In this document: positions 5,491-26,754 of the stretch, in pieces
Layout: the number at the start of each line of letters is the position of its first letter
Numbering within the stretch: the first letter of the stretch is position 1
Virus record (IMG/VR): IMGVR_UViG_3300013117_000343
Span: 1 to 50,508 of that record
Reading direction: 5' to 3' (one strand)
Origin: a virus
Length of the DNA stretch: 50,508 nt
Position numbers and translations under genes: made by a program
The notes under the pieces: model-generated
Told to the model about the DNA's origin: nothing
Seen by the model: the letters and a program-made list of their open reading frames with translations, nothing else
The model's database searches: none

Positions 5491-5870
5491 CACTCCTCCA
5501 ATATTTTAATTTTGGTGAATTTGAGTCCTATTGCTTCTTTGTGAGTCATTGTCTTTCCGTCTACTACTACTATTCGTGAGCTAGGTAGACCCTTTATTGG
5601 GTTTAGTTTCTTATCTTTATCTACTGATATCATAAAGGGCGGCTGGTCTGGTTTAAGCTCTGGTTGGATTACTACGGGTTTAGTTGGCTCTGGTTTAATC
5701 TTATCATCTTTTCCACAGAGGTGCGTAATGTCAATTGTGTCCTTTCCCTCAAGTCCACTGATTATCTCATCAAGCATGAGCTTAGCACAGTCTGCTTTAA
5801 TCTCAAGCTCGTGTATGTCCTTGGTGGTGTTAAGCATCTTACTTACTGCTCTAAGCATGTTTATTATCAT
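5490..5870 (-). CDS. Hypothetical protein, helical N-terminus
   Basis: A 126-residue protein of unknown function. The start is taken at ATG 5870 because AAGGAGG precedes it. Residues 1-50 look helical, residues 60-85 are Pro and Lys rich (linker), and the C-terminus is more ordered. The stop overlaps the ParB/methyltransferase start, suggesting co-translation. A copy of the dispersed 23-bp palindrome ends immediately before its ribosome binding site. Confidence 0.65.
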   Translation of the reverse strand: MIINMLRAVSKMLNTTKDIHELEIKADCAKLMLDEIISGLEGKDTIDITHLCGKDDKIKPEPTKPVVIQPELKPDQPPFMISVDKDKKLNPIKGLPSSRIVVVDGKTMTHKEAIGLKFTKIKILEE

Positions 5871-8696: not shown

Positions 8697-9548
8697 TCAA
8701 TTCACCCCCTTCCCCTTAATCTCAACTGAACAGTGCCCCCACTCTTGAAACCTATTAAACTTCACCTTTACATCACATGGGTTGCACACCCCATATTCTT
8801 CACATCTTCTAAACCCTCTAATTAACTTAACCTTATCATTTAATATGTGACCCATTGGGTTAATATCATTGTAGAGGTCATGATGACATCTAAAAATAAA
8901 ACCAGAGGGGTTTATCAAGAGCTCAGAAGGCTTACACTTAACAGTTAGTTTTCTAAGTTTAGTGCAAGCATTTTGATATTTGTAAGTGTTCTTCTCCCAA
9001 CCAGTGCTTAAAAACCTTTTAGTTCTAAAGTCTATGCCCCTCTCCTTACACATCCTAATCATAGACCTGTTAGTGTTCATAAACATAATATTATCAAATC
9101 CCCAGATGCCCACCTTATACCCCATCTTTTGAAGGGTGTGAACCTTGCTAACCATCTCAGCTTGATTGGTTTTTTTGTGTAGGCTAAACCTAATACTGGC
9201 ATATTTAGCTCTTCTTTTAAATACGTAAGGGTCAACTCTACTTACGAACTCATCCAGGTTAAACATACCATTAGTTACTAGGTCTAACCCTATCCCCTTA
9301 CGATATAAACCATCTACTATGGTATAAAATTGTGGGTGGATAGTCGGCTCTCCTCCTTGGAGAGTAAGAGGTAGGTCTGCTCTGTTCTGTATGCGAGCCA
9401 AACCATCTATCCACCCCGTAGCTCCTAACTCCTCCGTCTTAACGAGCCTGTCGAACCTATTGATACAGTAGGTGCAAGCCATGTTACACCGAAAAGTTAA
9501 GAAAACTCCTACGTAGTTATAAGTTTTGGGTAGTGTGATTGGTCTCAT
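8697..9548 (-). CDS. Radical SAM enzyme with C-terminal cysteine cluster
   Basis: A 283-residue radical SAM protein. CNMACTYC (Cys21, 25, 28) is the CxxxCxxC loop that binds the [4Fe-4S] cluster and S-adenosylmethionine; LQGGEPTIHP is the GGEP motif and DLVTNG a later barrel strand. Further cysteines in the last 70 residues (RCHHDLY, CEEYGVCNPC, HCSVE) suggest an auxiliary SPASM/twitch-like cluster, as in enzymes modifying peptides, sugars or cofactors. The gene overlaps the E1-beta-like gene by 32 bases. Substrate unknown; the neighbourhood suggests a joint pathway with the thiamine-diphosphate pair. Confidence 0.9.
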   Translation of the reverse strand: MRPITLPKTYNYVGVFLTFRCNMACTYCINRFDRLVKTEELGATGWIDGLARIQNRADLPLTLQGGEPTIHPQFYTIVDGLYRKGIGLDLVTNGMFNLDEFVSRVDPYVFKRRAKYASIRFSLHKKTNQAEMVSKVHTLQKMGYKVGIWGFDNIMFMNTNRSMIRMCKERGIDFRTKRFLSTGWEKNTYKYQNACTKLRKLTVKCKPSELLINPSGFIFRCHHDLYNDINPMGHILNDKVKLIRGFRRCEEYGVCNPCDVKVKFNRFQEWGHCSVEIKGKGVN

Positions 9549-10056
9549 ATAAGTCCTTTTCTTCTATTACCAAAGTTGGTAATGGTGAGATAAACATACT
9601 GTTGTAGAGGCTTTGTATTCTCTCAGGTTTTACTAATCGGACGGTTGTGATGTGGGGCTCAAACACGTTGGTGAAGTCATGGTTGTGTTGAAGACCTACA
9701 TCAAATTTGCCATCCTGGGAACCAATTATCGCTCTGATTAGGATTGGAAGAGTGAATTGCCCACCACTCATCTTCGGCACTAGAGCCATGTGGTTTATAA
9801 TTGCATCGGCGGCTATTAGCATGAAGTCCATTCTTTGGAACACCACTATAGGTTTGTAGCCTTGCATCGCAAGACCTATTGCAGCCCCTGCAATTAAGTT
9901 TTCGCAGATGGGCATCTCTAAGCATTTTTTCGCATTTACTTTGGTCATGGTGCCATATATATCTCCTGCGTTTTTTAACCCTTCTCCGAGGAACACGGTC
10001 TTTGGTTGTTCTCCTAGCCATGTCATCACCTCCGTTAGTTCTTGTTTATAGGTCAT
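9517..10056 (-). CDS. Minimal E1-beta-like (PYR-domain) thiamine-diphosphate subunit
   Basis: A 179-residue protein matching the pyrimidine-binding domain of 2-oxoacid dehydrogenase E1-beta/transketolase proteins: FLGEGLKNAGDIYG, the Glu segment PICENLIAGAAIGLAMQG and SGGQFTLPILIRA. Ordinary E1-beta subunits are about 320 residues and add a C-terminal transketolase domain, which is missing; the protein ends soon after VRLVKP. The E1-alpha-like partner is two small genes upstream. Together they could form one active site for decarboxylation or C2 transfer. No E2 or E3 gene is present, so a classical dehydrogenase complex is unlikely. Ribosome binding site AAAGGAG. Confidence 0.85.
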   Translation of the reverse strand: MTYKQELTEVMTWLGEQPKTVFLGEGLKNAGDIYGTMTKVNAKKCLEMPICENLIAGAAIGLAMQGYKPIVVFQRMDFMLIAADAIINHMALVPKMSGGQFTLPILIRAIIGSQDGKFDVGLQHNHDFTNVFEPHITTVRLVKPERIQSLYNSMFISPLPTLVIEEKDLYETNHTTQNL

Positions 10057-10199
10057 ATTATCTCCTTTATTTTCTCTTTTTTATATTCATAGCCGCACAA
10101 AGGGCATTTTTCGTGTTGAATGCCAAACTCTGCATGGCAGTTACCACATGTTACTTCAACTTTTACAATCCCTAATCTAATTAGGTCTTTAAGTTTCAT
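10053..10199 (-). CDS. Zinc-ribbon protein, 48 aa
   Basis: Begins MKLKDLIRLG and contains CGNCHAEFG and CPLCGYEY, a four-cysteine zinc ribbon, with a Lys-rich tail. Its TGA overlaps the ATG of the E1-beta-like gene (ATGA), indicating coupled translation. No clear ribosome binding site of its own. It may be an adaptor of the neighbouring enzyme pair. Confidence 0.65.
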   Translation of the reverse strand: MKLKDLIRLGIVKVEVTCGNCHAEFGIQHEKCPLCGYEYKKEKIKEII

Positions 10200-10350
10200 T
10201 AGTTTGTTTTTGCCTTATGCTGTCAAGCACCTCCCATGTAGTGGGTTTATCAAGCCGCTTTAGAAATCGTATTTACCTTTCCAAAGGATAAAACCCTTGG
10301 TGCCATAGAAATAACAATTTCCATAAGAAACCATATTCCTTTACTTTCAT
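10189..10350 (-). pseudogene. Small gene split by one in-frame TAA
   Basis: From ATG 10350, behind AAAGGAGG, the frame encodes 25 residues beginning MKVKEYGFLW and ending FYPLER, meets TAA at 10273-10275, then stays open for 26 more codons (RFLKRLDKPTTWEVLDS and on) to TAA at 10189-10191. Both halves look protein-like and share one frame, so this is either a nonsense-broken gene or a 25-residue peptide. Other genes here end normally with TAA, so reassignment of that codon is unlikely. Confidence 0.4.
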
Positions 10351-10377
10351 AACTACCTCCTTTTTCTAACTACAATT

Positions 10378-10572
10378 TTAACACCCCATCCCTTCTACTG
10401 TTGCCTGTTTTATTATATCTTCTTGGGGGACACTTACATAGTGATGTTTACAAATCCAGACCTTCTTCCCATTGTGTTCTACCACCTGAAAATCTTTGGT
10501 AATGGGTTTCTTGCAGATAGGGCACTGACCCTTATCTACTCTACTAGATACAATGTTATTACATTGAGACAT
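10378..10572 (-). CDS. Small zinc-binding protein, 64 aa
   Basis: Contains GQCPICKKPI followed by WICKHHYV, a C-x2-C / C-x2-H zinc site. The ATG at 10572 is chosen because GGGGGTAGGTG precedes it; a GTG two codons earlier is possible. It overlaps the end of the E1-alpha-like gene and lies between the alpha and beta halves. Function unknown. Confidence 0.6.
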   Translation of the reverse strand: MSQCNNIVSSRVDKGQCPICKKPITKDFQVVEHNGKKVWICKHHYVSVPQEDIIKQATVEGMGC

Positions 10573-11197
10573 GTGCACCTACCCCCACGTGAGGCCACCT
10601 TCTCACATAGTTATACCTTATTATATTCCTCGCAACCATTGGTGTAAAGTTATGCCATCTCTCTTCTTTGGTGCTCTCCACCGCAAGGTCATTATCCTCT
10701 ATTATGAAGGTGAGAGGTAGACTGCGGGAGTTGCCAAACCTCACTGCCTCCATAAAATGCCCAGTGTCTTCTCCACCATCTCCCACGAAGCACCAGACAT
10801 GACCTTTAGACCTCTTCTTTTTTAATCCAAGGGCTAGACCTACAGCAATAGCACACCCTCCACCCACTATCGCTGAGGTTAGGAAGTTAATTGACTTATC
10901 GTAGATGTGCATGCTCCTTCCCTCTCCTTTGCAGATGCCACTCTTCCTACCTAAGATTTCATCATGGAGCTTTTGGGCATCTCCTCCTTTTAAGAGATAG
11001 TGGTAATGGTTTCTATGAGAACTAACTACCCAATCTTTAGGTTTAATTGAACTAAAGAGTGAGATTAGCTGCTCCTCATTTCCTCCTGATAAGTGGATGG
11101 GGCAGGAAATCTTACCTTGTTTAAATAAAGTCTTAATGTTCTCCTCAAACCCTATGAGCTCTTCCTTTGTCCATCTCTTATTAGGTATACTCTTCAT
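10559..11197 (-). CDS. Minimal E1-alpha-like (PP-domain) thiamine-diphosphate subunit
   Basis: A 212-residue protein aligned by motif with E1-alpha subunits of 2-oxoacid dehydrogenases: SSHRNHYHYLLKGGD, ILGRKSGICKGEGRSMH, a Gly-Ala helix GGGCAIAVGLALGL, and the metal/thiamine-diphosphate loop GDGGEDTGHFMEAVRF reaching the metal-ligand Asn in EDNDLAVES. Typical E1-alpha chains run 320-400 residues; this one stops shortly after the cofactor loop. With the E1-beta-like partner it forms a stripped-down TPP enzyme. The ATG overlaps the TGA of the upstream membrane-peptide gene. Capsule and lipopolysaccharide loci also carry E1-like pairs, a hint rather than proof of role. Confidence 0.87.
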   Translation of the reverse strand: MKSIPNKRWTKEELIGFEENIKTLFKQGKISCPIHLSGGNEEQLISLFSSIKPKDWVVSSHRNHYHYLLKGGDAQKLHDEILGRKSGICKGEGRSMHIYDKSINFLTSAIVGGGCAIAVGLALGLKKKRSKGHVWCFVGDGGEDTGHFMEAVRFGNSRSLPLTFIIEDNDLAVESTKEERWHNFTPMVARNIIRYNYVRRWPHVGVGAHVSM

Positions 11198-11409
11198 CTT
11201 AATATCTTTGATACCTCCATCATCGCCTCTATTTTACCGTTTATGAGCAATGGGTGATAAATACCCTGTTGACTTTTAATTACATCAAGGTATTTATTCA
11301 TGCTCTTTAATATCCTTATGCTCTCCCTTATCTTACCTATTTCAAACCAGACCTTCGCTGTTATTATAAGACATAAAATGTGGAATAAAGTAACTATCAA
11401 AGTCCCCAT
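11194..11409 (-). CDS. Single-pass membrane protein, 71 aa
   Basis: An N-terminal membrane helix (about residues 3-22, LIVTLFHILCLIITAKVW) is followed by a charged helical tail (EIGKIRESIRILKSMNKYLD). It overlaps the B12-type radical SAM gene by 13 bases and the E1-alpha-like gene by 4. It could tether the cassette to the membrane; inference only. Confidence 0.6.
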   Translation of the reverse strand: MGTLIVTLFHILCLIITAKVWFEIGKIRESIRILKSMNKYLDVIKSQQGIYHPLLINGKIEAMMEVSKILR

Positions 11410-12755
11410 ACTCTCCTCCTTGTCTCTAATCTAATCCGATTTAGCTCTTCCAGGGAAACTCCCATCATCCCTGCTATCTTTTTAGCCTTAAGAGTTGAGC
11501 TAAAGTTAATCCTATCCCACTCATAGGCTCTAATCATAGTTATCTCCTTAGAGGTGAACTCTGAGGTCTCTATTTGACCCTCTCTCCAGCTATCTCCCTC
11601 TTTTAGGCACTTCCCTTTGACGCACATGTCCCACAGGCGAGTATGTTTAAGAGGGGTGGCTGTAAAGACCTTAGTATAATCGGCGTCTATATACTCGGCT
11701 ACTTTAAGGGTCTTTCTAATCTCAGTCCAGGTCTCCCCTGGGAAACCTATGATGAAATTAGCCGCCACAAAGATACCATACTCTTTAGCATCTTGTATAA
11801 CACATTTGGCGTCTTCTAAGTCTATCCTTTTACCTATGATTTCCCTTTGAACTCTCCTGCTTCCACTCTCAATGGCTACATCGATATACTTACAGCCGCT
11901 CTTAGCCATAAGTCCAATCATCTCATCATCCATTTTGATTACTGAGGTAGCTATCATAGACCAAGGCATAGTGAGACCTCTCCTAATCATCTCTTGGAAA
12001 AGACTCTTAGCCCTCTTCTCATTATATAGTAGGTTATCGTCGTCAAAAATAAGAGACTTAATCTTATAATCCTTCTTAAGCCAGCTAATCTCTTCAATAA
12101 CATTTTCTACACTCCTTCCTCTCCAGCGTTTGCCCATTATCTCCTCTACTTGACAGAAACAACACCCATACGGACAGCCCCTAGACGTTATAATGCGTCC
12201 ATAAGGATACGAACACGGAGCGTCTACACTTTTCCGTATGGGTGGTTTATTTATATATGATTTTAAATCAATTAAGTCGTATGCGGGTAGGGGGAGTTCA
12301 TTTAACTTTTGGATTGGGAGGGCTTGGTGAATACCATGCCAACTATAGCCAAGGGTTATTTGGTTCATTAGGTATTCTCCCTCTCCCTTGACTATTATAT
12401 CTATCTCTGGAGCTTTTATTAAGATGTCAGCGTTCATACTGGGAGATACTCCTCCAACTACTACTTGTATTTTTTTAGATACAGCTTTAACTGCTTTGGC
12501 GGCTCTAAGAGTGGCTCCAAGTTGAGAGTCTATCATAGTAGTTATACCTACCATGTCTGGTTTCTCTTTCTCTACACGTTTTGCAAATACTGATGTTTCT
12601 AAGTCCTCTTTATAAGCATCTATTATATTTACCATAGTCCCATTCTTTCTAACTTTGGCGGCAAGGAGGCATAGATTGTAAGGTATGTAATCCCAGAGGA
12701 AATCCTTGTTTGTCTCACTCCATCTAAAGTTGGGGACTACAAGGGTTAGGTTCAC
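11397..12755 (-). CDS. Radical SAM enzyme with cobalamin-binding-like N-terminal domain
   Basis: A 452-residue protein of the B12-binding radical SAM class. Residues 1-140 form the Rossmann-like domain (MVGITTMIDSQLG, VVVGGVSPSMNADILI, IIVKGEGEYL); the classical DxHxxG histidine is not seen, so cobalamin binding is uncertain. Cys194, Cys198 and Cys201 (CPYGCCFC) form the cluster loop, followed by LIFDDDNLLYN and IDVAIESGS, usual for this class. Members methylate, cyclise or rearrange unactivated carbons in lipids, antibiotics and cofactors. GTG start. Context: between a 181-aa unknown and the E1-like genes. Confidence 0.9.
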   Translation of the reverse strand: MNLTLVVPNFRWSETNKDFLWDYIPYNLCLLAAKVRKNGTMVNIIDAYKEDLETSVFAKRVEKEKPDMVGITTMIDSQLGATLRAAKAVKAVSKKIQVVVGGVSPSMNADILIKAPEIDIIVKGEGEYLMNQITLGYSWHGIHQALPIQKLNELPLPAYDLIDLKSYINKPPIRKSVDAPCSYPYGRIITSRGCPYGCCFCQVEEIMGKRWRGRSVENVIEEISWLKKDYKIKSLIFDDDNLLYNEKRAKSLFQEMIRRGLTMPWSMIATSVIKMDDEMIGLMAKSGCKYIDVAIESGSRRVQREIIGKRIDLEDAKCVIQDAKEYGIFVAANFIIGFPGETWTEIRKTLKVAEYIDADYTKVFTATPLKHTRLWDMCVKGKCLKEGDSWREGQIETSEFTSKEITMIRAYEWDRINFSSTLKAKKIAGMMGVSLEELNRIRLETRRRVWGL

Positions 12756-13297
12756 AAGTCCTCCCTATTATCCCTCATCATGTTTAATGTCTCTTTGTTA
12801 AGTATCCTAAATGAGTGTAATTGCCTTCTAAACTCAAACTCTACCATCTCCTCCTCATAGAATACATACTCTATTACGGCCTTTCTGCCTGCTATTGAGA
12901 TAGGTAGACATACTCTTATATGACGAGAATGATTATGTATTGTCATTTCTTCTGGGTAATACTTAATAAAGTTAAATATCCTGCCCCTGATATAATTAGC
13001 AAGCCTTGTCCTAATCTTCTTCTGGCTCCATTTGTAATTAAGGCGTTCTTGTAACCAATTTCCTATAGCGTGTATTTCTTCTCTCCTTTTAGGAGCATTC
13101 TTAATAAACCTGTGTATAGTATTGTTAATCCTCCTATCAGGATTGTTTTGGGACACCAGCTGGGGTCTTAATCCCGTGGTGAGTGGAAGTGTCATTATAA
13201 GTAACATTAAACATACCCTATCCATATCCACAGTCAGGTTCCCCCTCACTATCCTCAACTGCCCACTCACATATGTGTGGAATTTGACTCTCACCAC
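12752..13297 (-). CDS. Hypothetical 181-aa protein
   Basis: No family recognised. From the GTG at 13297 the first residues are beta-like, then a hydrophobic segment (MDRVCLMLLIMTLPLTTG) that could be a signal or membrane helix if translation starts at ATG 13225. The rest is basic and helical (KRREEIHAIGNWLQERLNYKW) with a beta-rich end. The start is uncertain: neither candidate has a clear ribosome binding site. A 27-codon frame from ATG 13302 (MSGESQIPHICEWAVEDSEG) ends over ATG 13225, so coupled initiation there is possible. It overlaps the next gene by 4 bases. Confidence 0.5.
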   Translation of the reverse strand: MVRVKFHTYVSGQLRIVRGNLTVDMDRVCLMLLIMTLPLTTGLRPQLVSQNNPDRRINNTIHRFIKNAPKRREEIHAIGNWLQERLNYKWSQKKIRTRLANYIRGRIFNFIKYYPEEMTIHNHSRHIRVCLPISIAGRKAVIEYVFYEEEMVEFEFRRQLHSFRILNKETLNMMRDNREDL

Positions 13298-13326
13298 TCA
13301 TAATACACTTTGTGAAAGGGCAAAGT

Positions 13327-13704
13327 TTACTGCGACTGATGCCTAATTTTAACCTCTCTAAACCCCTTCTTAGTAGTCCTGTTAATCTCATTTTTATACT
13401 CCACTCTCTTCCTGTTAAGGTTTCTAATAGCTATTGCCCTTCTCCCTATCTCAGAGAGAGTAAACTTCTTCTCGCCGCCTTTCCTAATTTCATTCTCCAG
13501 GTTCCAAATGTCTATATTTGCCATAGTAAGTCTAATAGTTGCTGTTATTAAGTGAGAATTTATTCCTGAAGCATTGAGTCCCTTGATTATACTTTGGTAT
13601 TCAGGATATGCTGCTTCCTCACCAAAATATATTTTACGAATGAGAATTGAAAGCTTGTCTATTACATCACCAAGAGAGTATTGAGGTAGTTTAGACTTTT
13701 TCAC
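13327..13704 (-). CDS. DUF6165-like small protein
   Basis: A 125-residue protein. SLGDVIDKLSILIRKIYFG, MANIDIWNLENEIRKG and IGRRAIAIRNLNRKRVEYK resemble the short helical DUF6165 family (pattern DKLSILEIK, LWxIEDxIR, TNDxRAxxKxxIN), found near glycosyltransferase and lipopolysaccharide genes. The function of that family is unknown. Starts at GTG 13704 behind AAGGA. Its presence next to radical SAM and E1-like genes strengthens a link of the cassette with sugar or envelope chemistry. Family assignment is from memory of the pattern only. Confidence 0.55.
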   Translation of the reverse strand: MKKSKLPQYSLGDVIDKLSILIRKIYFGEEAAYPEYQSIIKGLNASGINSHLITATIRLTMANIDIWNLENEIRKGGEKKFTLSEIGRRAIAIRNLNRKRVEYKNEINRTTKKGFREVKIRHQSQ

Positions 13705-13895
13705 AATTTTTATCCTTTCTATGAATTGTCATGTGCTCACTAAATGTGACAACTGCACTACTACCGCAGTATACGTATTTTGTTATTTGACAGTATACTC
13801 TGTTTATATGCCTTTTTTTATGGGTGTATTCAACGTATGGTCTACCATTTTTATATTTTACTTTGTTAATATTTATAGGTGTTCCATTATAACTC
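13691..13895 (-). other. Open frame without a standard start, cysteine/histidine rich
   Basis: Just after the TGA at 13896-13898 a frame of 67 codons stays open to TAA at 13691-13693, with protein-like content (INKVKYKNGRPYVEYTHKKR, then YCQITKYVYC and SEHMTIHRKDKNC, a possible zinc finger). It contains no ATG until late, and the preceding CxxC gene ends in another frame at 13887. It could be the second half of that gene joined by a frameshift, a decayed gene, or use a rare start codon. Confidence 0.35.
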
Positions 13896-14090
13896 CATAA
13901 CTTTCAATAATATACTAAAACATCTCTTGCAAACGTGCATCTTCTTAACAAATTCTATTCTATTAGGGGGAGATAATAGAATACCTCCAAACTCTTCAAG
14001 TCTTTCTTTACAAAAATAGCAGATAGGTTTTATGCCTATTCCCTCTTTTCTCCTTCTTCTCCTAGCATCGCTATACTTATGCTTCCCCAT
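13887..14090 (-). CDS. Small zinc-binding basic protein, 67 aa
   Basis: Starts MGKHKYSDARRRRRKEG at ATG 14090, behind GGGAGGA. Two cysteine pairs, CYFCKERL and CKRCFSI, are spaced as in an HNH-like or zinc-ribbon fold, but no catalytic His-Asn is visible in this frame. The following startless frame also carries Cys and His residues, so the intact ancestral protein may have been longer. Confidence 0.6.
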   Translation of the reverse strand: MGKHKYSDARRRRRKEGIGIKPICYFCKERLEEFGGILLSPPNRIEFVKKMHVCKRCFSILLKVMEL

Positions 14091-14154
14091 AAATCCTCCC
14101 ATCATTTATCATCTTACACACTTCCATTAGGTCTTTGTCTACTTTCTCTCTCAT
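14077..14154 (-). CDS. Micro-protein, 25 aa
   Basis: Begins MREKVDKDLMEV, helical and charged. Its ATG overlaps the end of a copy of the dispersed palindrome and its 3' end overlaps the next start, the arrangement seen at 26751-26772. No ribosome binding site; the palindrome might act in initiation. Reality uncertain. Confidence 0.4.
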   Translation of the reverse strand: MREKVDKDLMEVCKMINDGRIYGEA

Positions 14155-14175
14155 AATTTCAATTTTTGAACTTAC
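14153..14175 (-). promoter_or_regulatory. Dispersed 23-bp palindrome, copy 2
   Basis: Read leftward, GTAAGTTCAA, 3 nt, TTGAAATTAT. It begins at the stop codon of the 31-aa membrane peptide gene and ends at the ATG of the 25-aa gene, so it fills the whole junction. Confidence 0.75.
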
Positions 14176-14270
14176 TACTTCCAAAGTAATGCACACACCA
14201 CATAAGCAATCCCATTAACTATTAGTGTTATCCCTATCAGCATCATCGTTGGGTTTTTAACCTCTATCAT
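14175..14270 (-). CDS. Membrane micro-protein, 31 aa
   Basis: Begins MIEVKNPTMM followed by one membrane helix (LIGITLIVNGIAYVVCALLW). The ATG overlaps the upstream TGA (ATGA) and AAAAGGAGG lies upstream. Function unknown. Confidence 0.6.
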   Translation of the reverse strand: MIEVKNPTMMLIGITLIVNGIAYVVCALLWK

Positions 14271-14365
14271 TGTTTGCCCCCGCCTCCTTTTCCTTCTGCC
14301 ATTAAATTATCCATTATTCTTAACATTTCCTTTTCACTTACAACATCCCCTAATTTATATGTCAT
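14267..14365 (-). CDS. Micro-protein, 32 aa
   Basis: Begins MTYKLGDVVSEKEML, helical, with a Gly-rich end. GAAGGAGAGG precedes the ATG, and its stop is coupled to the next membrane peptide. Function unknown. Confidence 0.55.
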   Translation of the reverse strand: MTYKLGDVVSEKEMLRIMDNLMAEGKGGGGKQ

Positions 14366-14395
14366 ATTAGTCCTCTCCTTCCCCTAAATCTTCTT

Positions 14396-15079
14396 TTACC
14401 CTTCATTCTCTTTTATTACATCCTCGATTTTTAAATCATCACCCCATTGGGATATATAAAATAAATCTTTACAATCTTTCACCATGCCAAAAACTATCGG
14501 GTCGGGAACATTTTGCACATGTGCAACAACAAACTCCGAAAAACAATCTAATTTTTTTGCTTTAACTACATTGTCCAGCACATATTCAGGGGGTGTTGTG
14601 TCCCATTCTCTTAATGGTGTTAACTTTACCTCCTTTTGCTTGTTAACCCTTTCGGATACTTTACCACCATAATGCAATAAACAGATAAAGCCAGCTAGGC
14701 AGACTCCAGAAATAATGGACGGCCACAATAAGACATTGTTTTCTTTGACCAAGTAAGACAAGCTAGTAATTGACACAAATAAACTTAATAAAGCACCCAA
14801 AAAAGTTAGGTTAGCTAATAGCTGTAGTCTCTTACGGTTGTTTAAACTTTTCTCAAAATCGTCCAAATTTTTAGGTGTTACATATTTATAATGTTCATAT
14901 GCTACTGCTCTTCCCTTTGATACAACAACCTTAGATTTAATGCATTCTAACACTTTAACTAGCCCACACATTTCCAGCTTCGCTAAATAATCTTCAATGT
15001 GTGGATTAAGCTCAACTGCTTCTCTTTTTTTAGCTTTCTCAGCTAACTTAAGTAATGCCCATTTGTCTCCCATTTTCAT
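14396..15079 (-). CDS. Two-pass membrane protein, 227 aa
   Basis: Residues 1-80 are cytoplasmic-like and basic, two hydrophobic helices follow (about 87-108 and 116-137), and a soluble C-terminal domain of ~80 residues ends acidic. The N-terminal part (HIEDYLAKLEMCGLVKVLEC) resembles a winged helix, so a membrane-bound sensor or regulator is conceivable. Starts behind AAGGAGGAGAG. No family recognised. Confidence 0.65.
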   Translation of the reverse strand: MKMGDKWALLKLAEKAKKREAVELNPHIEDYLAKLEMCGLVKVLECIKSKVVVSKGRAVAYEHYKYVTPKNLDDFEKSLNNRKRLQLLANLTFLGALLSLFVSITSLSYLVKENNVLLWPSIISGVCLAGFICLLHYGGKVSERVNKQKEVKLTPLREWDTTPPEYVLDNVVKAKKLDCFSEFVVAHVQNVPDPIVFGMVKDCKDLFYISQWGDDLKIEDVIKENEG

Positions 15080-15146
15080 CTCTCCTCCTTATCTATTAAC
15101 CCCTCCTCAATATCACAGGTTCTTTAACTAAACATTCATTACAAAA

Positions 15147-15254
15147 CTAAGCCTTAACTTTTTTATTAGGCGCAAAATCAAATACAGGCCTCCACTTACC
15201 ATTACCCTTAGTAATCTCAAAGTATTTATTGCAATGATAGCAGTTGTTACTCAT
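15147..15254 (-). CDS. Cysteine-pair micro-protein, 35 aa
   Basis: Begins MSNNCYHCNKYFEITKGNGK at ATG 15254, behind AGAGGAG; one CxxC pair and a basic tail. It lies right after the intein-bearing radical SAM gene and may be co-expressed with it. Confidence 0.5.
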   Translation of the reverse strand: MSNNCYHCNKYFEITKGNGKWRPVFDFAPNKKVKA

Positions 15255-15270
15255 TGGCTTCTCCTCTATT

Positions 15271-17304
15271 CTAAATAAAGTTAATATGCTCAGGTGGATT
15301 AAGGTAGTTCCATATGAATGCATTTGTGAAATCATGGCGGCACGAGCCAGCACACATAGTATGCACATCAAAATCTTCCCTCATATACTTAATTATATGC
15401 CAATACCTATCACTATCAATAATCTCTTTTAGAGTATTTTTCTTAAGGTCACCATAACAATAATCACTATTATTGAATAGATAACCACAAGGGTAGCATT
15501 TAGAATTCCCACTAATTTGAAAAATAAGGGGACAATCTACACATCTATCATAAGGTCTCCTACCCTTACTCGCTATCATCCCCCATTTAGGGACAATTTT
15601 AGTCTTATCATTAGATAGCTTCTGAGCTTGTTTCAACACCTCTAACACTCTCTTATTATCATACCAGTTTAAATTAAAGTGGGACATACCCTTACACCCT
15701 GGGTCAGAGAACTGTTTAATTACGAAATAGTCAACTCCCTCTCTTACTGCCCACTTAGCCTCTGGTATTACTTGCTCAAGACAGTCAGGTATAAACACCA
15801 TCTGAAGTCCAATGGTGCACTTATACCCTTTAGTTTTCTTAATATAGATTGCAGAACGGATAGCGGCCTGCACACGCTCCCACTGAGGAACACCATGAAT
15901 GGTTTTATATCCTCCTGAGTCAACGGCAGATAGGTTGAAGCGAAGCCATGTGCAGGTGGAGAGAAGAATTCTTAACTTAGTCTCATCTAAAAAGATACCA
16001 TTTGTTGCAAATCCTATGTCTAACCCCCACTTCTTACCCTCAATACAAGCATCATAGACGGCTGGGTTAAGTGTAGGCTCCCCATCTCCCGTGAGGGTAA
16101 GAGACTTAACTCCCAAGTATGGGGCATCTATAAAAAGTTTAATGAGTATATCTCTTGGTATAACATCCATTGACATCTTTTGATGTATACCATAACAATT
16201 GTGAACACAAAGTCCTTTTGCAATAAATGTATGACTTTCGGTTGTTAGGTCATACACTTCAGTAACTCTTCCGATTGACACAAAATTAACTCTTAATACG
16301 CCCTCAATTTTACAATCAAAAGCTTTTTCAAACTTTCTTGTTATAGCGGGAGTTGTTACTTGCATAAATCTAATACGATTTTCATAACCTTTTGTAACTC
16401 TTACCACTTTTACACTTTTACCATAATCCTCTAACGTGTTTGGAATGTGGAGCTTGTTCAATGACAATGTTATCATATGCAATACAGAAGTGTCGCTATT
16501 AGATATTCTCAAATTGTTTCCGCTTATACTTCCTTCAGCGTCAAAAATACCTCCAAGGTATCCTCTGTAGAAGCTTTGACTTTGCCCCAACAATAAGTCT
16601 TTGTAACTTATAAATTTTTTAAGAAGATGTGTGTGCTCTTTTCCTATTACATAAAGCTTATGCTTACTTCTTTTATAAGAAACAATGAAACCTATATCAA
16701 TTAGGTATTGATAGGCTCTATCAAGGGCTTCTATGTCAATCATGTCCAATCTCATATGATAGGTAGAGTATCTAGGTGATATATTAAATGTGCCATCACC
16801 ATCTATTATTCCTTTTACATAACCTATTTTGTAATCTCTATCTATTAACTGTATAGGTATTTGCTTTCCTATGTAATGAACATCATTATTATTCGTTAGT
16901 TTTCCAGCATCTTTCCATCCTCTATGTTTGACAAGGACTTGGTGGTCTGGAGTAATCTCTAATGTTTCTCCATTTGTAAAGTGCACTACATTGGTGATAG
17001 CCATTCTTTTGTGGATATCTGTAACAGTGGTATATTTTAATCTTCTTTGCTTATGTATATTTCCAATCTCATCAAAACCTATAACAGTGTCCCCAACCTT
17101 GACATCTTTTATTGGCTTTGTGCCCAAAGGTGTGGTTATTGGTGTATCTCCTGTTACACAATAAATACATTTAGCATTACACCTCTTAGTAGCACCAATA
17201 TCTATATGGAGGGGATATATTTTCCAACTGTTTCGGTAGTGGTTATTAACCCTGTCCAGGTGCCATAAGAGTTTACACCCATCAAAAAGGTAGGGGTTAT
17301 CCAC
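15271..17304 (-). CDS. Radical SAM/SPASM enzyme interrupted by an intein
   Basis: A 677-residue precursor: 48 N-terminal host residues, a 321-residue intein (49-369) and 308 C-terminal host residues. Splicing restores RCNAKCIYCYG, the CxxxCxxC loop for the [4Fe-4S]/AdoMet site; the intein sits exactly before the third cysteine. The mature ~356-residue enzyme also has LTGDGEPTLNP, IGFATNG and a C-terminal SPASM-like cysteine set (DRCVDCPL, KCYPCGY, CYGDL, CAGSC), typical of enzymes acting on peptides or carrying auxiliary clusters. Without splicing it should be inactive. GTG start behind GGAGG. Third radical SAM gene of the cassette; substrate unknown. Confidence 0.92.
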   Translation of the reverse strand: MDNPYLFDGCKLLWHLDRVNNHYRNSWKIYPLHIDIGATKRCNAKCIYCVTGDTPITTPLGTKPIKDVKVGDTVIGFDEIGNIHKQRRLKYTTVTDIHKRMAITNVVHFTNGETLEITPDHQVLVKHRGWKDAGKLTNNNDVHYIGKQIPIQLIDRDYKIGYVKGIIDGDGTFNISPRYSTYHMRLDMIDIEALDRAYQYLIDIGFIVSYKRSKHKLYVIGKEHTHLLKKFISYKDLLLGQSQSFYRGYLGGIFDAEGSISGNNLRISNSDTSVLHMITLSLNKLHIPNTLEDYGKSVKVVRVTKGYENRIRFMQVTTPAITRKFEKAFDCKIEGVLRVNFVSIGRVTEVYDLTTESHTFIAKGLCVHNCYGIHQKMSMDVIPRDILIKLFIDAPYLGVKSLTLTGDGEPTLNPAVYDACIEGKKWGLDIGFATNGIFLDETKLRILLSTCTWLRFNLSAVDSGGYKTIHGVPQWERVQAAIRSAIYIKKTKGYKCTIGLQMVFIPDCLEQVIPEAKWAVREGVDYFVIKQFSDPGCKGMSHFNLNWYDNKRVLEVLKQAQKLSNDKTKIVPKWGMIASKGRRPYDRCVDCPLIFQISGNSKCYPCGYLFNNSDYCYGDLKKNTLKEIIDSDRYWHIIKYMREDFDVHTMCAGSCRHDFTNAFIWNYLNPPEHINFI
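16198..17160 (-). mobile_element. Full-size intein with LAGLIDADG homing endonuclease
   Basis: Splice block A starts with Cys1 (CVTGDTPITTPLG, with KVGDTVIGF behind it); block B has NGETLEITPDHQVLV with the conserved His; two LAGLIDADG-type motifs, YVKGIIDGDG (residues 162-171 of the precursor) and YLGGIFDAEG (249-258), form the endonuclease; blocks F/G read VYDLTTESHTFIAKGLCVHN, ending His-Asn, with Cys as the +1 residue. All catalytic positions are present, so splicing and homing look functional. Confidence 0.93.
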
Positions 17305-17765: not shown

Positions 17766-17991
17766 GGTTCTTCTCCTTAAGATAAATGTTTCCAAATTTA
17801 TCCATCATGACTTCGTCTTCGTCTATGCTGTAGCGAGGGAAGCCATACTCACATTGCCAGACGCCTTTACTTAACCTAACTAGAGGTCTCCCACAACTAC
17901 ATTTGGCGTTCCCATCAAAGATTGCGAACCACTGCCCTCCACTTAGCATCTCACTTTTATAATCCCCTTCAAACGGGACTCTCTCACTCAC
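17752..17991 (-). CDS. Small zinc-knuckle protein, 79 aa
   Basis: Contains AKCSCGRPLV and VWQCEYGFPRYS, a CxC plus single Cys arrangement that may be a degenerate zinc ribbon. GTG start just inside the end of the AAA+ ATPase gene. The acidic tail (SIDEDEVMMDK) may bind a partner, conceivably the ATPase. Confidence 0.55.
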   Translation of the reverse strand: MSERVPFEGDYKSEMLSGGQWFAIFDGNAKCSCGRPLVRLSKGVWQCEYGFPRYSIDEDEVMMDKFGNIYLKEKNHDPN

Positions 17992-19081
17992 TCTTCCCCT
18001 CTTTCCTAACCTTCTCTATAACCTTTTCAAAGTCATTACCCATACCAATATCCTGCACAACATTATCCCCCACTATTTTAAAATGCTTTCTCCTATTAAA
18101 TGCATCTTTTCCTTGAAGCTCAGTCTCAACTCCCTTATTAAAGTCATTTAACTCAATAGCCTTCTTCTTACCATAGGCTGCCTTCCTAGCTCCCAACAGG
18201 ATTGCATTTTTAATCTGACCTCCAGTGAGGTCATGGGTAGATAAAATCTCAAAGCAGACACATTTAGCTAACGGTGCCTCTTTAGGGATTAGGTTTCTCC
18301 AGATTTTTGCTCGGGACGCCTTGTCTGGTTTAGTGAACTCAAGCTTAAGACATATCCTTCTTTCAAGTGCGGGGTCTAACTCATGGCTTCTATTAGTGGT
18401 GAGGATACAGGTCCCCTCAAACCGCTCAATCTCGGTGAGGAGGGTATTTATCTCAGCGGCTAGGATAGCTCCCACCTTATTCCTGCTGTATACTAGACTA
18501 TCGCACTCATCTAATATTACTACTGCATCTTTAGAATGGGCAGAGGAAAATGCCTTGGCTATATTCCTCTCTGCCTGTCCTGGGACTGAGCTCTGGATAT
18601 TTTTGGTGCTTAACATTAAATAATCTTTACCAAGAGCCTCCGCAATAGCTTCAGCACACATAGTCTTCCCAGTTCCTGGAGGTCCCCAGAAGAGGAGGAT
18701 AGCACCCTTCCCCTTCTCAATAGTAGAGGCAAACCCCCACTCCTGAAATATCTTCTCACTTATCTCAGCGTTAGATTGGGAGATTGTCTCTAAGATTAAC
18801 TGCTTAACCTTCTCAGGGAGGACTAATATATTCATCATACTATTAACCTTCTTCCTCTTCTTAATCTCCTGTCTCCCTATTACCCTGAACTCGGCTTGGG
18901 TGATATAACTTCGCCCAACATCTAATATGTAATGCTTACCTTGACAATAGCCAGTAATAGTATACTCCTTACCTATGGTGTAACTATGACTACAAGTATT
19001 ACTCATAACCACCACCTTAGTTCCAAGAGGCAGTAACTTAACTGGCAGCTCTGGTCTTCTCAGCCAATCCTCTGAAGTCAT
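17984..19081 (-). CDS. AAA+ ATPase with N-terminal small beta domain
   Basis: A 365-residue ATPase. Residues 10-70 look like a small SH3/KOW-type barrel (LPLGTKVVVMSNTCS to EFRVIGR). The AAA+ core has Walker A GPPGTGKT (133-140), Walker B VVILDECDS (187-195), sensor 1 TTNR (228-231) and an arginine-finger region ALERRI (238-243), closest to FtsH/katanin-like or 26S-type remodelling ATPases. It lacks protease and primase motifs, so it probably remodels a phage or host protein. GAAAGGAGGG precedes the ATG. A 19-codon frame at 19041-19097 (MKGGKDDFRGLAEK), with AAAGGAGG upstream, overlaps its start and might be a leader peptide. Confidence 0.87.
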   Translation of the reverse strand: MTSEDWLRRPELPVKLLPLGTKVVVMSNTCSHSYTIGKEYTITGYCQGKHYILDVGRSYITQAEFRVIGRQEIKKRKKVNSMMNILVLPEKVKQLILETISQSNAEISEKIFQEWGFASTIEKGKGAILLFWGPPGTGKTMCAEAIAEALGKDYLMLSTKNIQSSVPGQAERNIAKAFSSAHSKDAVVILDECDSLVYSRNKVGAILAAEINTLLTEIERFEGTCILTTNRSHELDPALERRICLKLEFTKPDKASRAKIWRNLIPKEAPLAKCVCFEILSTHDLTGGQIKNAILLGARKAAYGKKKAIELNDFNKGVETELQGKDAFNRRKHFKIVGDNVVQDIGMGNDFEKVIEKVRKEGKSE

Positions 19082-22547: not shown

Positions 22548-22690
22548 TTTATCTCACCCCTTCTCCTTTACTTATTTTTGTTACAATGTGTGTTTTGAAT
22601 ATTATGTTCGTAAGTTCAAACTTTTAAAAAGTAGTATTTTTAGTTTAGGTCTTGAAAAAGCAATTACCTATGGTTCAAGTATATATAAGA

Positions 22691-22719
22691 AGTATATCAC
22701 GAGGTAAGGGCTTTGTCAA
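22691..22719 (-). promoter_or_regulatory. Early leftward promoter
   Basis: On the minus strand TTGACA (22714-22719), a 17-nt spacer and TATACT (22691-22696), near-consensus for the housekeeping sigma factor. The spacer (AAGCCCTTACCTCGTGA) closely resembles that of the rightward promoter at 24264, so one activator or repressor may read both. Expected to drive the whole leftward block. Confidence 0.85.
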
Positions 22720-23012
22720 GTTATTTTTTTTGTTGTAACCTATTGGGATTATTAGGGTTGTGAGAAGTCAAAAAAAATAAATTTTGAGGGTATTTCAAAA
22801 ATTGAGAGGGCGACCTCAAAGGGTGAAATTGCGTTTTTGGGGTTTGGTGAGCCAGTAGAGGCAAAGTAATAGCGAGGGTATAGGGGAGTATAGGGTTGGA
22901 AAAGATGAGGGCTTATATTGGAGATTTGAGTAGAGGCGGGGTTGAGGGTGTAAGTTCAATAAAGAGATTTTAAATTACCTTAAAACACGGAGTTCATTGG
23001 AGTTATGTAAAT

Positions 23013-23102
23013 CCGTGTAACTCTGTGTAACTTTGAAATTACGCTAAGCTGTTGGGATTATTGGGGTTATAGAAAAAGAACCAAAGTTACACAGTTACAC
23101 AG
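23013..23102 (+). repeat. Origin repeat unit 1
   Basis: Starts with CCGTGTAACT followed by CTGTGTAACTTT (23013-23034), then a half-site TTGAAATTAC (23033-23042), ATTATTGGGGTT (23057-23068), AGAAAA, and the inverted boxes AAAGTTACACAGTTACACAG (23083-23102). The same order recurs in unit 2. Confidence 0.75.
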
Positions 23103-23197
23103 GGGGTTGCTGGGTGCTTTTAAATGTTTTTAAGAAGTATGTTTATATATATATTTTATATATATTATAAATATATTTATAAAGTAAAATAGGATAC

Positions 23198-23286
23198 CCG
23201 TGTAACTGTGTAACTTTCGCCAGATTTCTATAAGTCCTTCTAATTATTGGGGTTCGGAGAAAATGAGGGTTACACAGAGTTACACA
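23198..23286 (+). repeat. Origin repeat unit 2
   Basis: Direct copy of unit 1 about 185 bp on: CCGTGTAACTGTGTAACTTT (23198-23217), AATTATTGGGGTT (23242-23254), AGAAAA, and inverted boxes GTTACACAGAGTTACACA (23269-23286). Each unit holds two head-to-head pairs of GTGTAACT boxes, eight boxes in all. Confidence 0.75.
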
Positions 23287-23495
23287 AAACGCTGTAAGTC
23301 TAATAAACTCCGTGTTTTAAAGAGATTTAAAAAGTCCTGTAATTTCAATAAATCACTTATGATGTCAATACAATACTAACCTGTTAATACAATGTTAGTT
23401 TATGGGAGTAATTTTCAAAAATGGTGGGATAAAACTAATATATCGGCGTGTTATCTATGTGATGTTTTATAAAAATGTTAGAGTTAATGTTAGAG

Positions 23496-23846
23496 TTAGA
23501 GTGTTATACCTAACTCTGCGAGTTTATCTGCTGATAAACCTTGCAAAACTTTTATTGCTTGTTGATTTTTGCGTCGTGTTGCTTTCAAACGTTCTTTGAC
23601 TTCTGGTGAAAGTTCACGAGATACGATGTGTCCATTGTCAGTTTTTAACTTTAACCTTGCTGTATTACATTGATTGATTTTATGCTTATCATTGATGAGT
23701 TTCAAAACTTCTTTCTCTGATAAGTTATCCGTTGCGTCGGCAACGCTATCAAATAATGTAATCTCACAAGTTCCCGTAATTTCTGTTCCTGCGTCGTCAA
23801 AGTCATCAGGGACATTGTATTTTATACCTACTTCAAGTTTACGCAT
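23496..23846 (-). CDS. Hypothetical 116-aa protein with its own promoter and foreign codon use
   Basis: Starts at ATG 23846 (CTCGGAGGTCT upstream). N-terminal half beta-rich and acidic (GIKYNVPDDFDDAGTEITGT), C-terminal half helical and basic (SPEVKERLKATRRKNQQAIK) with an end LSADKLAELGITL. Arginine is coded mainly by CGT, CGA and CGC, while most phage genes here use AGA/AGG, so it was probably acquired recently. Alone between the origin and the late promoter, it is a candidate moron or regulator. No family recognised. Confidence 0.75.
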   Translation of the reverse strand: MRKLEVGIKYNVPDDFDDAGTEITGTCEITLFDSVADATDNLSEKEVLKLINDKHKINQCNTARLKLKTDNGHIVSRELSPEVKERLKATRRKNQQAIKVLQGLSADKLAELGITL

Positions 23847-23926
23847 AGACCTCCGAGCATAGCATAAACACGCCGACATATTTAGTTTTTAAAGAGCAAT
23901 ATGATTATACTAATGGTTGTATTATA

Positions 23927-23954
23927 AGTATAGCATATATAACTATAATGTCAA
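23927..23954 (-). promoter_or_regulatory. Promoter of the isolated 116-aa gene
   Basis: Minus strand TTGACA (23949-23954), 16-nt spacer, TATACT (23927-23932), with a further TATAAT just downstream. The transcript would start near 23920 and reach the ATG at 23846. Its spacer differs from those of the two main promoters, which suits independent, perhaps constitutive, expression. Confidence 0.75.
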
Positions 23955-24263: not shown

Positions 24264-24292
24264 TTGACAAAACCTACCTTGTGTGATATACT
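24264..24292 (+). promoter_or_regulatory. Rightward (structural operon) promoter
   Basis: TTGACA (24264-24269), 17-nt spacer AAACCTACCTTGTGTGA, TATACT (24287-24292). A palindrome half-site GTAATTTCAA (24244-24253) lies 10 nt before the -35 box, a natural regulator position. The stretch 24019-24243 upstream has no gene; it holds A+T-rich sequence and a degenerate half-site near 24201. Confidence 0.88.
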
Positions 24293-24359: not shown

Positions 24360-24462
24360 TTGAAATTACACGCCTCGTCTTGACGAAGACTGGGGTGATA
24401 GTTACTAAGCTTAGCGACACATTACATTGACTTAAATGTTGATGCCTTTGTGTCGCTTTTTT
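24360..24462 (+). terminator. Structured leader with terminator-like hairpin before terminase
   Basis: In the 5' leader of the structural operon: half-site TTGAAATTAC (24360-24369), small hairpin GTCTT/AAGAC (24377-24390), then a 9-bp perfect stem AGCGACACA (24413-24421) with TGTGTCGCT (24449-24457) enclosing an inner ACATT/AATGT stem, and a T6 run (24457-24462). This has the form of an intrinsic terminator 20 nt before the first gene, so the operon probably needs attenuation control or antitermination. Confidence 0.7.
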
Positions 24463-24483
24463 GTTTAGTAGAGGGAGGTGGAA

Positions 24484-25017
24484 ATGGGACAGGTAAAACC
24501 ACATAATATGAAGGCTATATCTACTCTTGCAAATGAACCTGTTAATATGAGTTCTAGAATTCAACTGATGATTGCTATGGATATTGCGGGTTCGAGTGGT
24601 AAGGATATGGAGAGTGCGCTGGGTATGTCAGGGACTAGGATATCTGCTATTAGGAATAGTCCTCTTTTTATGTCAAGAAGGAAGAGGAAGTGGAGAGAGC
24701 TTCAGGATAGGGTAATTGATAATAAGGTTGATGGGATAGTTAGTGGAGACCCTGTAGAGAGTAAAATTAAGGCACTTGCTATTAAGGCTATAGAGGCTCA
24801 AGAGAAGATGTTGGATGGTGCTGGGAGTGAGTTTGTAAGGAACTCTATTTCTAACTCCATACTTGATAGGGCGGGGTATAAAGCTCATACTGAGAAGACT
24901 AAGATTACGGTGGAAGTTACGGATAAGATGGCTGATAGGTTTGAGCGAGTTATGAAAATGGCGCAAAGTGGTGATAGTAGCAGTAAGGTATCTATTACAA
25001 CAGAACGAGAAGAATAA
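24484..25017 (+). CDS. terS: Terminase small subunit
   Basis: A 177-residue protein immediately before the large terminase. A helix-turn-helix-like segment (KDMESALGMSGTRISAIRNS, about residues 40-60), a basic patch SRRKRKWR, a long helical oligomerisation region and an acidic/serine-rich C-terminus match small terminases, which bind the packaging site and load the motor. ATG 24484 behind AGGGAGG; first gene after the late promoter. Confidence 0.78.
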   Translation: MGQVKPHNMKAISTLANEPVNMSSRIQLMIAMDIAGSSGKDMESALGMSGTRISAIRNSPLFMSRRKRKWRELQDRVIDNKVDGIVSGDPVESKIKALAIKAIEAQEKMLDGAGSEFVRNSISNSILDRAGYKAHTEKTKITVEVTDKMADRFERVMKMAQSGDSSSKVSITTEREE

Positions 25018-25127
25018 TGATAGATGACATAGATGCTATGCGTCTTGTTAATAGAGGTGAAAGTAATGGACTTAGTAAGGATGTCAGAAAAACAGAGGTT
25101 AGTTTTAAGGAAACAATGTCTTCGTAG
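25017..25127 (+). CDS. Possible 36-aa overlapping protein
   Basis: Begins MIDDIDAMRLVNRGESNG on a TAATG overlap with the small terminase and runs 62 bases into the large terminase in another frame. It may only serve to bring ribosomes to the terL start. Content is plausible but unsupported. Confidence 0.3.
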   Translation: MIDDIDAMRLVNRGESNGLSKDVRKTEVSFKETMSS

Positions 25128-26754
25128 TCTTTACGCATTTTGTGTTGGTGTGATGGGCTACGACGATATTACGGAAGACCTCCATGGAGAGTATTGTAGG
25201 TTTTTAGAGGGGGATAGTAGAAGGAAACAAGCTACTATGCCCCGTTCTTTTGTTAAGACTTGGATTGGGTCGATAGCTTACCCGATTTGGGCGACCTTGA
25301 TTAGACGAGCGGCTGATGAGTTCCCAGAAGGGACTGACCCAACTGATAAGTTTTGGAAATTGGGACCTGATATGAGGATACTTGTTGCAAGTTATGTAAT
25401 TAGTAATGCTGAGAAGATGATTTCCCTTATTAGGAAGACTTATGAGAGTAATCCTGTGATGCAGATGCTGTTTCCAGAAGTAATACCGAGGAATTTTAAT
25501 AAGATTAGGTGGAGTAATCAGAGTGCTTGTATAAATAGAGCTAATAATTATACTGAAAGTACTTTTGAGGCAGCTGGAGTAGGTGGTGCCTCTATCTCTC
25601 GGCATTATGATTTGGTAGTAGAGGATGACCTTGTATATGCCAAGAAAGATGACCTCACTGGGAAGGAGTTACATCCAAGTCAGGAAGATATAGATAAGGC
25701 TATTGGGTGGCATAAGCTCACTCACTCACTATTGGTTCCTGGTAGACATACTAGGATTTATAATATTGGGACTAGATGGGCTAAGAGAGACCTTATTAAG
25801 TATATCTGGGATAATGAGCCAAGTTATGAGAGGTTTATGAGGGCTGCTGTTAAGCTTGAGCAACTAAACGCTGGTTTAAATTGGGAGGAGTGTGACCCAG
25901 AGTGGCCTGAGTGTTATGACAAGAAACAGTTAAGAGGGATAAGAGATGCCCAAGGCACCTACATATTCTCCACGCAATACCTCCTCTTTCCACGCTCGCC
26001 TGAAGAGATGTTATTCAAAAAGCCATGGCTTCAGCTTTACACTAGTCCAGGAGAGGTTCCTGAGACCATTAGGAAGTTTACCACTGTAGACCTTGCTGAA
26101 TGGGGAAGCTCTAAACGCAAGAGGGGGGACTGTAATGCAGTTGTCCTTACTTGTGGTTGGGACCACCTTAATCACGTATGGTTAGTCCACTATGATACTG
26201 GTAGGTTTGACCCGAGTGAGGTAATTAAACTAATGGGGAAGCATTGGAACTTATTTCACCCTGAGAGTATCAGTGTGGAGAGTGTATATTATCAGAAGTC
26301 ACTTGCCCACTTTGCCCGCATTTACATGGAAGATGGTAAGGTGCCTTGGATGCGTATTCATAATATTAAACCTGAGGGGAATGAGAGTAAGGAACTTAGG
26401 ATTAGAGCTATTGAGCCAATTGCTTCAAACCTTGCTGTTCATTGTAAAGATAGTCATAAAGAGTTTATAGATGAGTTTTGTGATTATGTCCCTAATGACC
26501 ATACTTGTAAGAAGGATATATTGGATGCCCTTGCTTATCAAATTCAGGTGGCTAGACCTGGTGTCGCTAAAAGGGATGTTAGTGTGAGGAATAGGAATGA
26601 TTTCCTCCCTTTAGGGAATATTGATGACTTTTTAAAGGAGGCCTGGGGAAAGGGGAGAGGGAAAGGTATCTTTGGAGACCAACTTCCTAAAACTGACCCC
26701 TTTACTGAGCAAGAGGTTGAGGTTATACTGGAAGACCCGTTGGTTGGTTTATAA
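25066..26754 (+). CDS. terL: Terminase large subunit (packaging ATPase/nuclease)
   Basis: A 562-residue motor protein. ATPase: Walker A-like MPRSFVKTW, of the classical PRxxxKT terminase form, adenine/coupling segments, and Walker B HYDLVVEDD. Nuclease: FTTVDLAEWG with the first catalytic Asp, ISVESVYYQ with the second acidic residue, and KDILDALAYQ with the third. ATG 25066 is preferred because AGAGGTGA precedes it; an upstream in-frame start at 25033 lacks one. Follows terS. Its stop codon lies in a copy of the dispersed palindrome. Confidence 0.92.
   Translation: MDLVRMSEKQRLVLRKQCLRSLYAFCVGVMGYDDITEDLHGEYCRFLEGDSRRKQATMPRSFVKTWIGSIAYPIWATLIRRAADEFPEGTDPTDKFWKLGPDMRILVASYVISNAEKMISLIRKTYESNPVMQMLFPEVIPRNFNKIRWSNQSACINRANNYTESTFEAAGVGGASISRHYDLVVEDDLVYAKKDDLTGKELHPSQEDIDKAIGWHKLTHSLLVPGRHTRIYNIGTRWAKRDLIKYIWDNEPSYERFMRAAVKLEQLNAGLNWEECDPEWPECYDKKQLRGIRDAQGTYIFSTQYLLFPRSPEEMLFKKPWLQLYTSPGEVPETIRKFTTVDLAEWGSSKRKRGDCNAVVLTCGWDHLNHVWLVHYDTGRFDPSEVIKLMGKHWNLFHPESISVESVYYQKSLAHFARIYMEDGKVPWMRIHNIKPEGNESKELRIRAIEPIASNLAVHCKDSHKEFIDEFCDYVPNDHTCKKDILDALAYQIQVARPGVAKRDVSVRNRNDFLPLGNIDDFLKEAWGKGRGKGIFGDQLPKTDPFTEQEVEVILEDPLVGL

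Follow-up and report, generated by a model that had tools for sequence, protein, structure and literature searches.

A 365-bp dyad of inverted short boxes around an A+T core as the probable replication origin of a phage encoding a DUF3987 predicted helicase

Within a 50,508-nt virus record (IMGVR_UViG_3300013117_000343; hereafter the window, meaning the whole stretch of DNA that was analysed), we identified an imperfect dyad of about 365 bp, at positions 22968-23332 and centred on 23150, which is very probably the replication origin of the phage. Its place and layout are kept in relatives, its core is the least stable in the genome, a minimum of GC skew lies nearby, strong promoter matches fall outside it, and the same kind of arrays adjoin initiator-type helicase genes of unrelated phages; these findings, all obtained by computation, lend good support to a preliminary description of the segment as origin-like. 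From them we infer origin activity, as well as melting of the core, bidirectional replication and the identity of the box-binding protein. In the mechanism that we propose, oligomers of a phage-encoded initiator would occupy the GTGTAACT boxes on each flank of the A+T core; this initiator would most likely be the DUF3987 predicted helicase (247-1446), whose C-terminal winged helix would contact the boxes much as SaPI Rep and Cch2 contact their iterons; the core would melt, and two forks would depart in opposite directions, each arm being copied along the direction of its genes. We place the probability of this joint reading, in which an origin at 22968-23332 is served by a box-binding phage initiator, most likely the DUF3987 helicase, and gives rise to two divergent forks, at roughly 0.7. 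For most uncultured phages both origins and initiators are unknown, and here anatomy, conservation and a blind box search converge on an origin.

The record carries an exact 119-bp repeat at both ends and is thus most simply read as a closed circle; the genome, of 50,389 bp, is probably circular. Its leftward arm holds replication and metabolic genes, including those for the DUF3987/primase-like protein, a Sak4-like ATPase and a PD-(D/E)XK exonuclease, and the replisome further comprises a family A DNA polymerase with 3'-5' exonuclease, fused to a uracil-DNA-glycosylase domain (1446-3734, minus strand). The gene at 4225-5493 joins a ParB N-terminal domain to an N6/N4 DNA methyltransferase. The rightward arm opens with the small (24478-25017) and large (25033-26754) terminase subunits, both on the plus strand, which we used for finding relatives. 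The closest named terminases, from the spring-water podovirus MW202554.1, cyanophages and others, are about 20-29% identical; no DNA-level similarity to named phages was found, and terminase relatives sought in GTDB genomes yielded none that could be confirmed. An unusual metabolic island (8697-17304 and 48851-50185) encodes several radical SAM proteins, one of them B12-binding, a GARS-like ATP-grasp protein and a split thiamine-pyrophosphate enzyme (9517-10056, 10559-11197); its radical SAM/SPASM gene (15271-17304) is interrupted by an intein that has a LAGLIDADG domain, and the island is partly present in the relatives L013, L036, L037 and G003.

The dyad matches its own opposite strand at 65% identity over 365 bp. 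Scored over all centres of the genome, the symmetry at 23150 is the strongest (114 of 200 symmetric positions pair, z 9.7), followed by that at 23155, within the same dyad (z 4.8), and by the best unrelated centre at z 4.4. Its outer arms, at 22968-23005 and 23295-23332, are 84% complementary over 38 nt and contain the near-perfect 19-bp inverted repeat noted previously at 22980-22998 and 23302-23320, in which 18 of 19 positions match. Between the arms, eight GTGTAAC boxes spread over about 270 bp of non-coding DNA form four pairs: an outer left pair on the plus strand (23015 and 23025, a 10-bp step, within 23013-23036), an inner left pair on the minus strand that points away from the core (23086 and 23094, an 8-bp step, within 23084-23102), an inner right pair on the plus strand (23200 and 23208, within 23198-23216) and an outer right pair on the minus strand (23269 and 23279, within 23267-23287). 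The order across the dyad is two right-reading boxes, two left-reading, the A+T core, two right and two left. Seven of the eight boxes read GTGTAACT, and the one at 23269 reads GTGTAACC. The former occurs nine times in 50.5 kb, seven of these within the dyad (shuffle mean 1.8, maximum 4), and the eight copies of the box 7-mer within 400 bp are the genome maximum, with six copies in the runner-up interval at 26.8 kb. No 50-mer of the genome is less stable than the core at 23142-23191 (z 5.7 versus 3.5 for the runner-up), the proposed DNA-unwinding element. Each half also holds an internal spacer, with TTGGGATTATTGGGGTT at 23038-23068 and TTATTGGGGTT at 23224-23254, both copies on the plus strand of a three-copy direct repeat that recurs at 22729-22759. 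Folded as a single DNA strand, the dyad region reaches z -8.7 relative to shuffles. The preliminary description had already listed the eight boxes in four pairs, a 50-bp A+T tract at 23141-23190 and the framing palindrome half-sites, all of which are found where it placed them, and had organised them into two direct units (23013-23102 and 23198-23286); those units do exist, but each is palindromic in itself, which is why two direct units were perceived, and the whole is better described as a single dyad of about 365 bp.

Distant relatives, found through their terminase at 53-68% identity, retain this arrangement. At the matching place they carry a member of the same small gene family that borders the dyad in the window (gene 23496), and in L013, L014, L015/L017 and L025 inverted boxes flank an A+T core at the equivalent position while the arms have diverged; boxes to the left of the core read mostly leftward and those to the right mostly rightward. 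A contig edge cuts the locus of L011, where the right half only is visible. The preliminary description had held that absence of the boxes from close relatives would speak against an origin; we looked for them there, and the outcome did not speak against one. The variants seen among relatives are themselves related (GTGTAACT, GTGGAAC and, in L036, GTGGTAAC). The dyad outscores every other in its locus in L025 (109 of 200, z 8.6), where it is comparable to that of the window, and also in L032 (z 6.5); for L014 and L015/L017 the best-scoring dyad falls on the core at one size of the scanning interval and is weak (z 4.2-4.4), and dyad analysis of L037 and L023 revealed none. Compared with each other, the arms within a single phage reach a score z of 19 in the window and 23.6 in L025, versus at most 10 for arms of different phages, and non-box arm positions pair at 49-50%, versus roughly 28% expected from composition, an expectation computed by hand. 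Since arms are more alike within a phage than between phages, it appears, as far as these alignments indicate, that each lineage has duplicated or homogenised the arms of its own origin. Sibling samples yielded near-identical contigs that carry the same segment; these show six variable sites in 2.2 kb and none in the dyad, too few for significance. L082 and L036, which come from the same metagenome, are alike in tetranucleotide use (0.92) and complementary in gene content, and are probably fragments of one phage.

Beyond these relatives, MW202554.1, whose DUF3987 protein and terminase are 28% and 29% identical to those of the window, also combines the two features, its top-scoring dyad (z 7.8, at 35895) falling on the 50-mer of lowest stability (35858), close to where transcription diverges from the terminase side; no GTGTAAC boxes were found in this dyad. 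The A+T-cored dyad of this phage (L230, 35780-35960) includes an exact DnaA box, TTATCCACA, of which the window has no copy. The more distant DUF3987 phages Pseudomonas phage PaP2 and Vibrio phage VS-ABTNL-3 showed no comparable dyad or box cluster.

To follow the boxes independently of relatedness, the doublet GTGTAACT-N0-4-GTGTAACTTT was scanned blind against IMG/VR and GTDB contigs, giving at least 136 loci with our own phage and L014 excluded. Strong clusters, defined as at least five boxes on both strands within 450 bp, are found at 18 of 136 loci among the matches listed, and box clusters occur in unrelated phages as well as prophages. Hosts among the matches listed include Lacrimispora, Companilactobacillus, Bacilliculturomica and Selenomonadales. 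Counting as neighbours a DUF927 helicase with a Cch helix-turn-helix domain (HTH_56), a VirE-like helicase or an AAA/primase protein, such a gene adjoins the cluster at 13 of the 18 strong loci versus 4 of the 118 others (Fisher 3.6e-11), or at 7 of 10 versus 4 of 118 with duplicates grouped by hand (Fisher 3.8e-7), all among the matches listed and in a test that is partly circular because loci of this very set supplied the AAA/primase query (L106) and the family models. The Pfam assignments are free of this circularity (DUF927, E 1e-27 to 1e-44; VirE, E 1e-61 to 1e-80).

The pattern extends to other box sequences in six annotated phages that encode DUF927 or VirE helicases and were picked on protein similarity, not on boxes. 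All six carry a phage-specific box array in both orientations, A+T-rich in between, directly after the helicase gene or, in phiRg507T2_3, one small gene further on. The box is GGTAACCGA in Thermoanaerobacterium phage THSA-485A (GGTAACC counted ten times), AGGTGAAAC in FP_Epona (GGTGAAA, ten copies) and GACAACCAA in phiPaco (CAACCAA, seven copies); GTAACAA occurs seven times in phiRg507T2_3 and four times in Roseburia phage Jekyll, and GTAACCA four times in AC844P1, while in the rest of the same six loci the most repeated 7-mer has only three or four copies. THSA-485A is much like the window in having an A+T core flanked by two units that share a spacer, CCTCAAACCCGCAT. Judged from sequence, many unrelated phages share this pairing of boxes and helicase. 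Its signature, a DUF927 or VirE helicase gene followed at once by inverted short-box arrays around an A+T core, may offer a way to find origins in numerous phages and prophages, and the pairing itself becomes directly testable.

A more tentative proposal, which we consider possible though doubtful, is that GTGTAACT is an origin box of unrelated phages that use different families of helicase-initiator, namely DUF3987, DUF927/Cch-like, VirE-like and AAA primase-helicases. If true, either the winged helices are homologous beyond detection and have been swapped among helicases, or a common factor reads the box, and the octamer would amount to an origin code common to phages of different bacterial phyla. 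When profiles of the DUF3987 winged helix and of the DUF927 C-terminus were compared, they did not match, despite the box common to their origins.

Which protein reads the boxes in the window is suggested by the DUF3987 gene (247-1446, minus strand; PF13148, E 4.8e-18), overlooked in the preliminary description, which had recognised no Rep protein. Its product carries a modelled C-terminal winged helix (residues ~328-396) and has an even chance of being the binder. The AF2 model, built from four sequences, has a mean pLDDT of 45 with a low-confidence and unreliable ATPase part, and residues 331-390 form a confident winged helix (local pLDDT 68-87), in which 61-68 residues align to known winged helices at Z ~10, many with an rmsd of 1.3-2 Å. 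A survey of mobile-element primases predicted DUF3987 to be a mobile-element helicase and the C-terminal winged helices of such primase/helicase proteins to recognise origins (PMC5862659); a family described by prediction gains here a concrete candidate initiator domain. A homologue of 50% identity is encoded in G003, which by its terminase is of the L015/L017 phage type, and the boxes of L015/L017 are of GTGKAAC type. No box cluster was found in the junction after the DUF3987 gene, which ends at 247, the proposed origin lying at 23.1 kb. The P-loop is degenerate (ESAKCRKS here, with R replacing the glycine before K in 3/3 homologues that cover the site), leaving helicase activity unsure.

This degeneracy would suit a different division of labour at the same origin, in which box binding falls to gene 23496, another early gene or a host factor, with the DUF3987 helicase only loaded at the site. 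We consider this unlikely, and weigh it here because the gene 23496 family adjoins the origin in many relatives and because GTGTAACT is common to phages with helicase families whose C-termini lack detectable homology, as a common binder predicts. The gene itself (23496-23879, minus strand), small and conserved, and present ahead of the terminase genes in many relatives as well, had been offered earlier as the possible initiator. Its product belongs to no family in Pfam, PHROG or NCBIfam, a fold search with its model gave no confident match to any DNA-binding fold, and its family lies beside GTGTAACT, GTGGAAC and GTGGTAAC boxes alike, which does not support an initiator role; the gene is probably not the initiator. 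Members of this family combine a beta-hairpin with long helices, and their strand orientation flips among relatives. DnaA was rejected on both box and domain: the window has no exact copy of TTATCCACA in its 50.5 kb, and a phage-encoded DnaA C-terminal DNA-binding domain (PF08299) was detected at E<=1 neither in the window nor in seven relatives, with 12 of 14 control genomes positive. Two further sets of candidates were set aside. The FtsH/CDC48-like AAA gene at 17984-19081 was not found in 11 of the 12 related records searched, many of them fragments, its sole match being a near-identical sibling; the conserved early genes at 20099, 20656 and 21226 showed no recognised DNA-binding family.

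Transcription signals bear on whether the boxes might serve as operators. Three promoter-like sites that agree with the consensus at 11 of 12 positions share TTGACA ... TG-TATACT, including the TG before the -10 element, and surround the proposed origin: one for the leftward early/replication arm (22691-22719, minus strand), one upstream of gene 23496-23879 (23927-23954, minus strand) and one for the rightward terminase/structural arm (24264-24292, plus strand). The region as a whole has 15 promoter-like matches, not clearly in excess of shuffles (11.2, sd 3.4), and we therefore give weight to the three 11/12 sites only. A position between divergent arms, with strong promoter matches on either side, is what one would expect if the boxes were operators at which a phage repressor or activator governs the divergent early (left) and late (right) transcripts. 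We regard such a regulatory region as very improbable: all three sites lie outside 22968-23332, the nearest some 250 bp off the edge of the dyad, the boxes are overlapped by none and the dyad contains chance-level matches only; an operator has no need of the least stable core in the genome; and in other phages the same arrays follow helicase genes, with no promoter pair implied. Least plausible of all is a packaging (pac/cos) or partition/recombination site, which would fit a small terminase gene at most 1.2 kb away and the encoded ParB-N/methyltransferase fusion, and against which stand the replication helicases that adjoin the box arrays of other phages, the location of the ParB-N domain on a DNA methyltransferase and the lack of a ParA-like partner among the genes scanned.

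Returning to the origin, cumulative GC skew, which the preliminary description had proposed to follow around 23.1 kb, has its minimum at 22.57-22.6 kb, 0.4-0.6 kb away, and its maximum near 0/50.4 kb, nearly opposite on the circle; because skew tracks gene direction in this genome, it is weak evidence for a start near 23 kb. Relatives have similar promoter-like sites ahead of their terminase genes. A motif, TTGAACTTA(C/T), occurs in leaders downstream of promoters, namely the leftward promoter in the window (22608-22620, minus strand) and the pre-terminase ones in relatives (L011 1115, L013 8589, L014 2944, L015 2244, L025 1338, L036 9361), and is possibly a regulatory or antitermination signal. 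The terminase leader at 24360-24470 closes with a hairpin-like GCGACACA...TGTGTCGC and, after it, a run of T directly ahead of the small subunit, and relatives have similar terminase leaders; an Rfam search gave no match.

The proposed origin shares features with several known types. Iteron plasmids, lambda O and P4-type origins have repeated initiator boxes beside an A+T-rich unwinding region, as does the window, whose boxes differ in standing in both orientations, symmetric about the core, and in lying outside any initiator gene. DnaA-type origins combine clustered short boxes with an unwinding element; the window has such a cluster and a proposed unwinding element, and differs from them in the absence of an exact TTATCCACA and of the DnaA C-terminal domain in the phages tested. 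Palindromic inverted boxes around an A+T spacer, with single-strand folding potential, are also found in herpes simplex oriS/oriL (PMC12543377), whereas the box sequence here is unrelated, the window belongs to a bacterial virus, and the window proteins scanned gave no Pfam match to a UL9-type SF2 origin-binding helicase. In SaPI Rep and Cch2, C-terminal domains recognise iteron origins, and the short-repeat origin lies directly downstream of the helicase gene (PMC7581432; for the SaPI Rep/SCC Cch2 origins, Ubeda 2007 as cited there). Like these systems, the window has several clustered short repeats. It encodes a predicted helicase with a modelled C-terminal winged helix and a degenerate P-loop. 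In the six named phages, related arrays with an A+T core adjoin DUF927 and VirE helicases in a layout that comes near to that of SaPI Rep and Cch2. The proposed origin of the window would work in the SaPI Rep/Cch manner, but since it is not directly downstream of the helicase gene, we do not count it as a member of that type, from which it differs in a candidate helicase of another family, DUF3987, in an origin some 23 kb from the helicase gene, and in the arrangement of its boxes as a 365-bp dyad whose arms evolve together.
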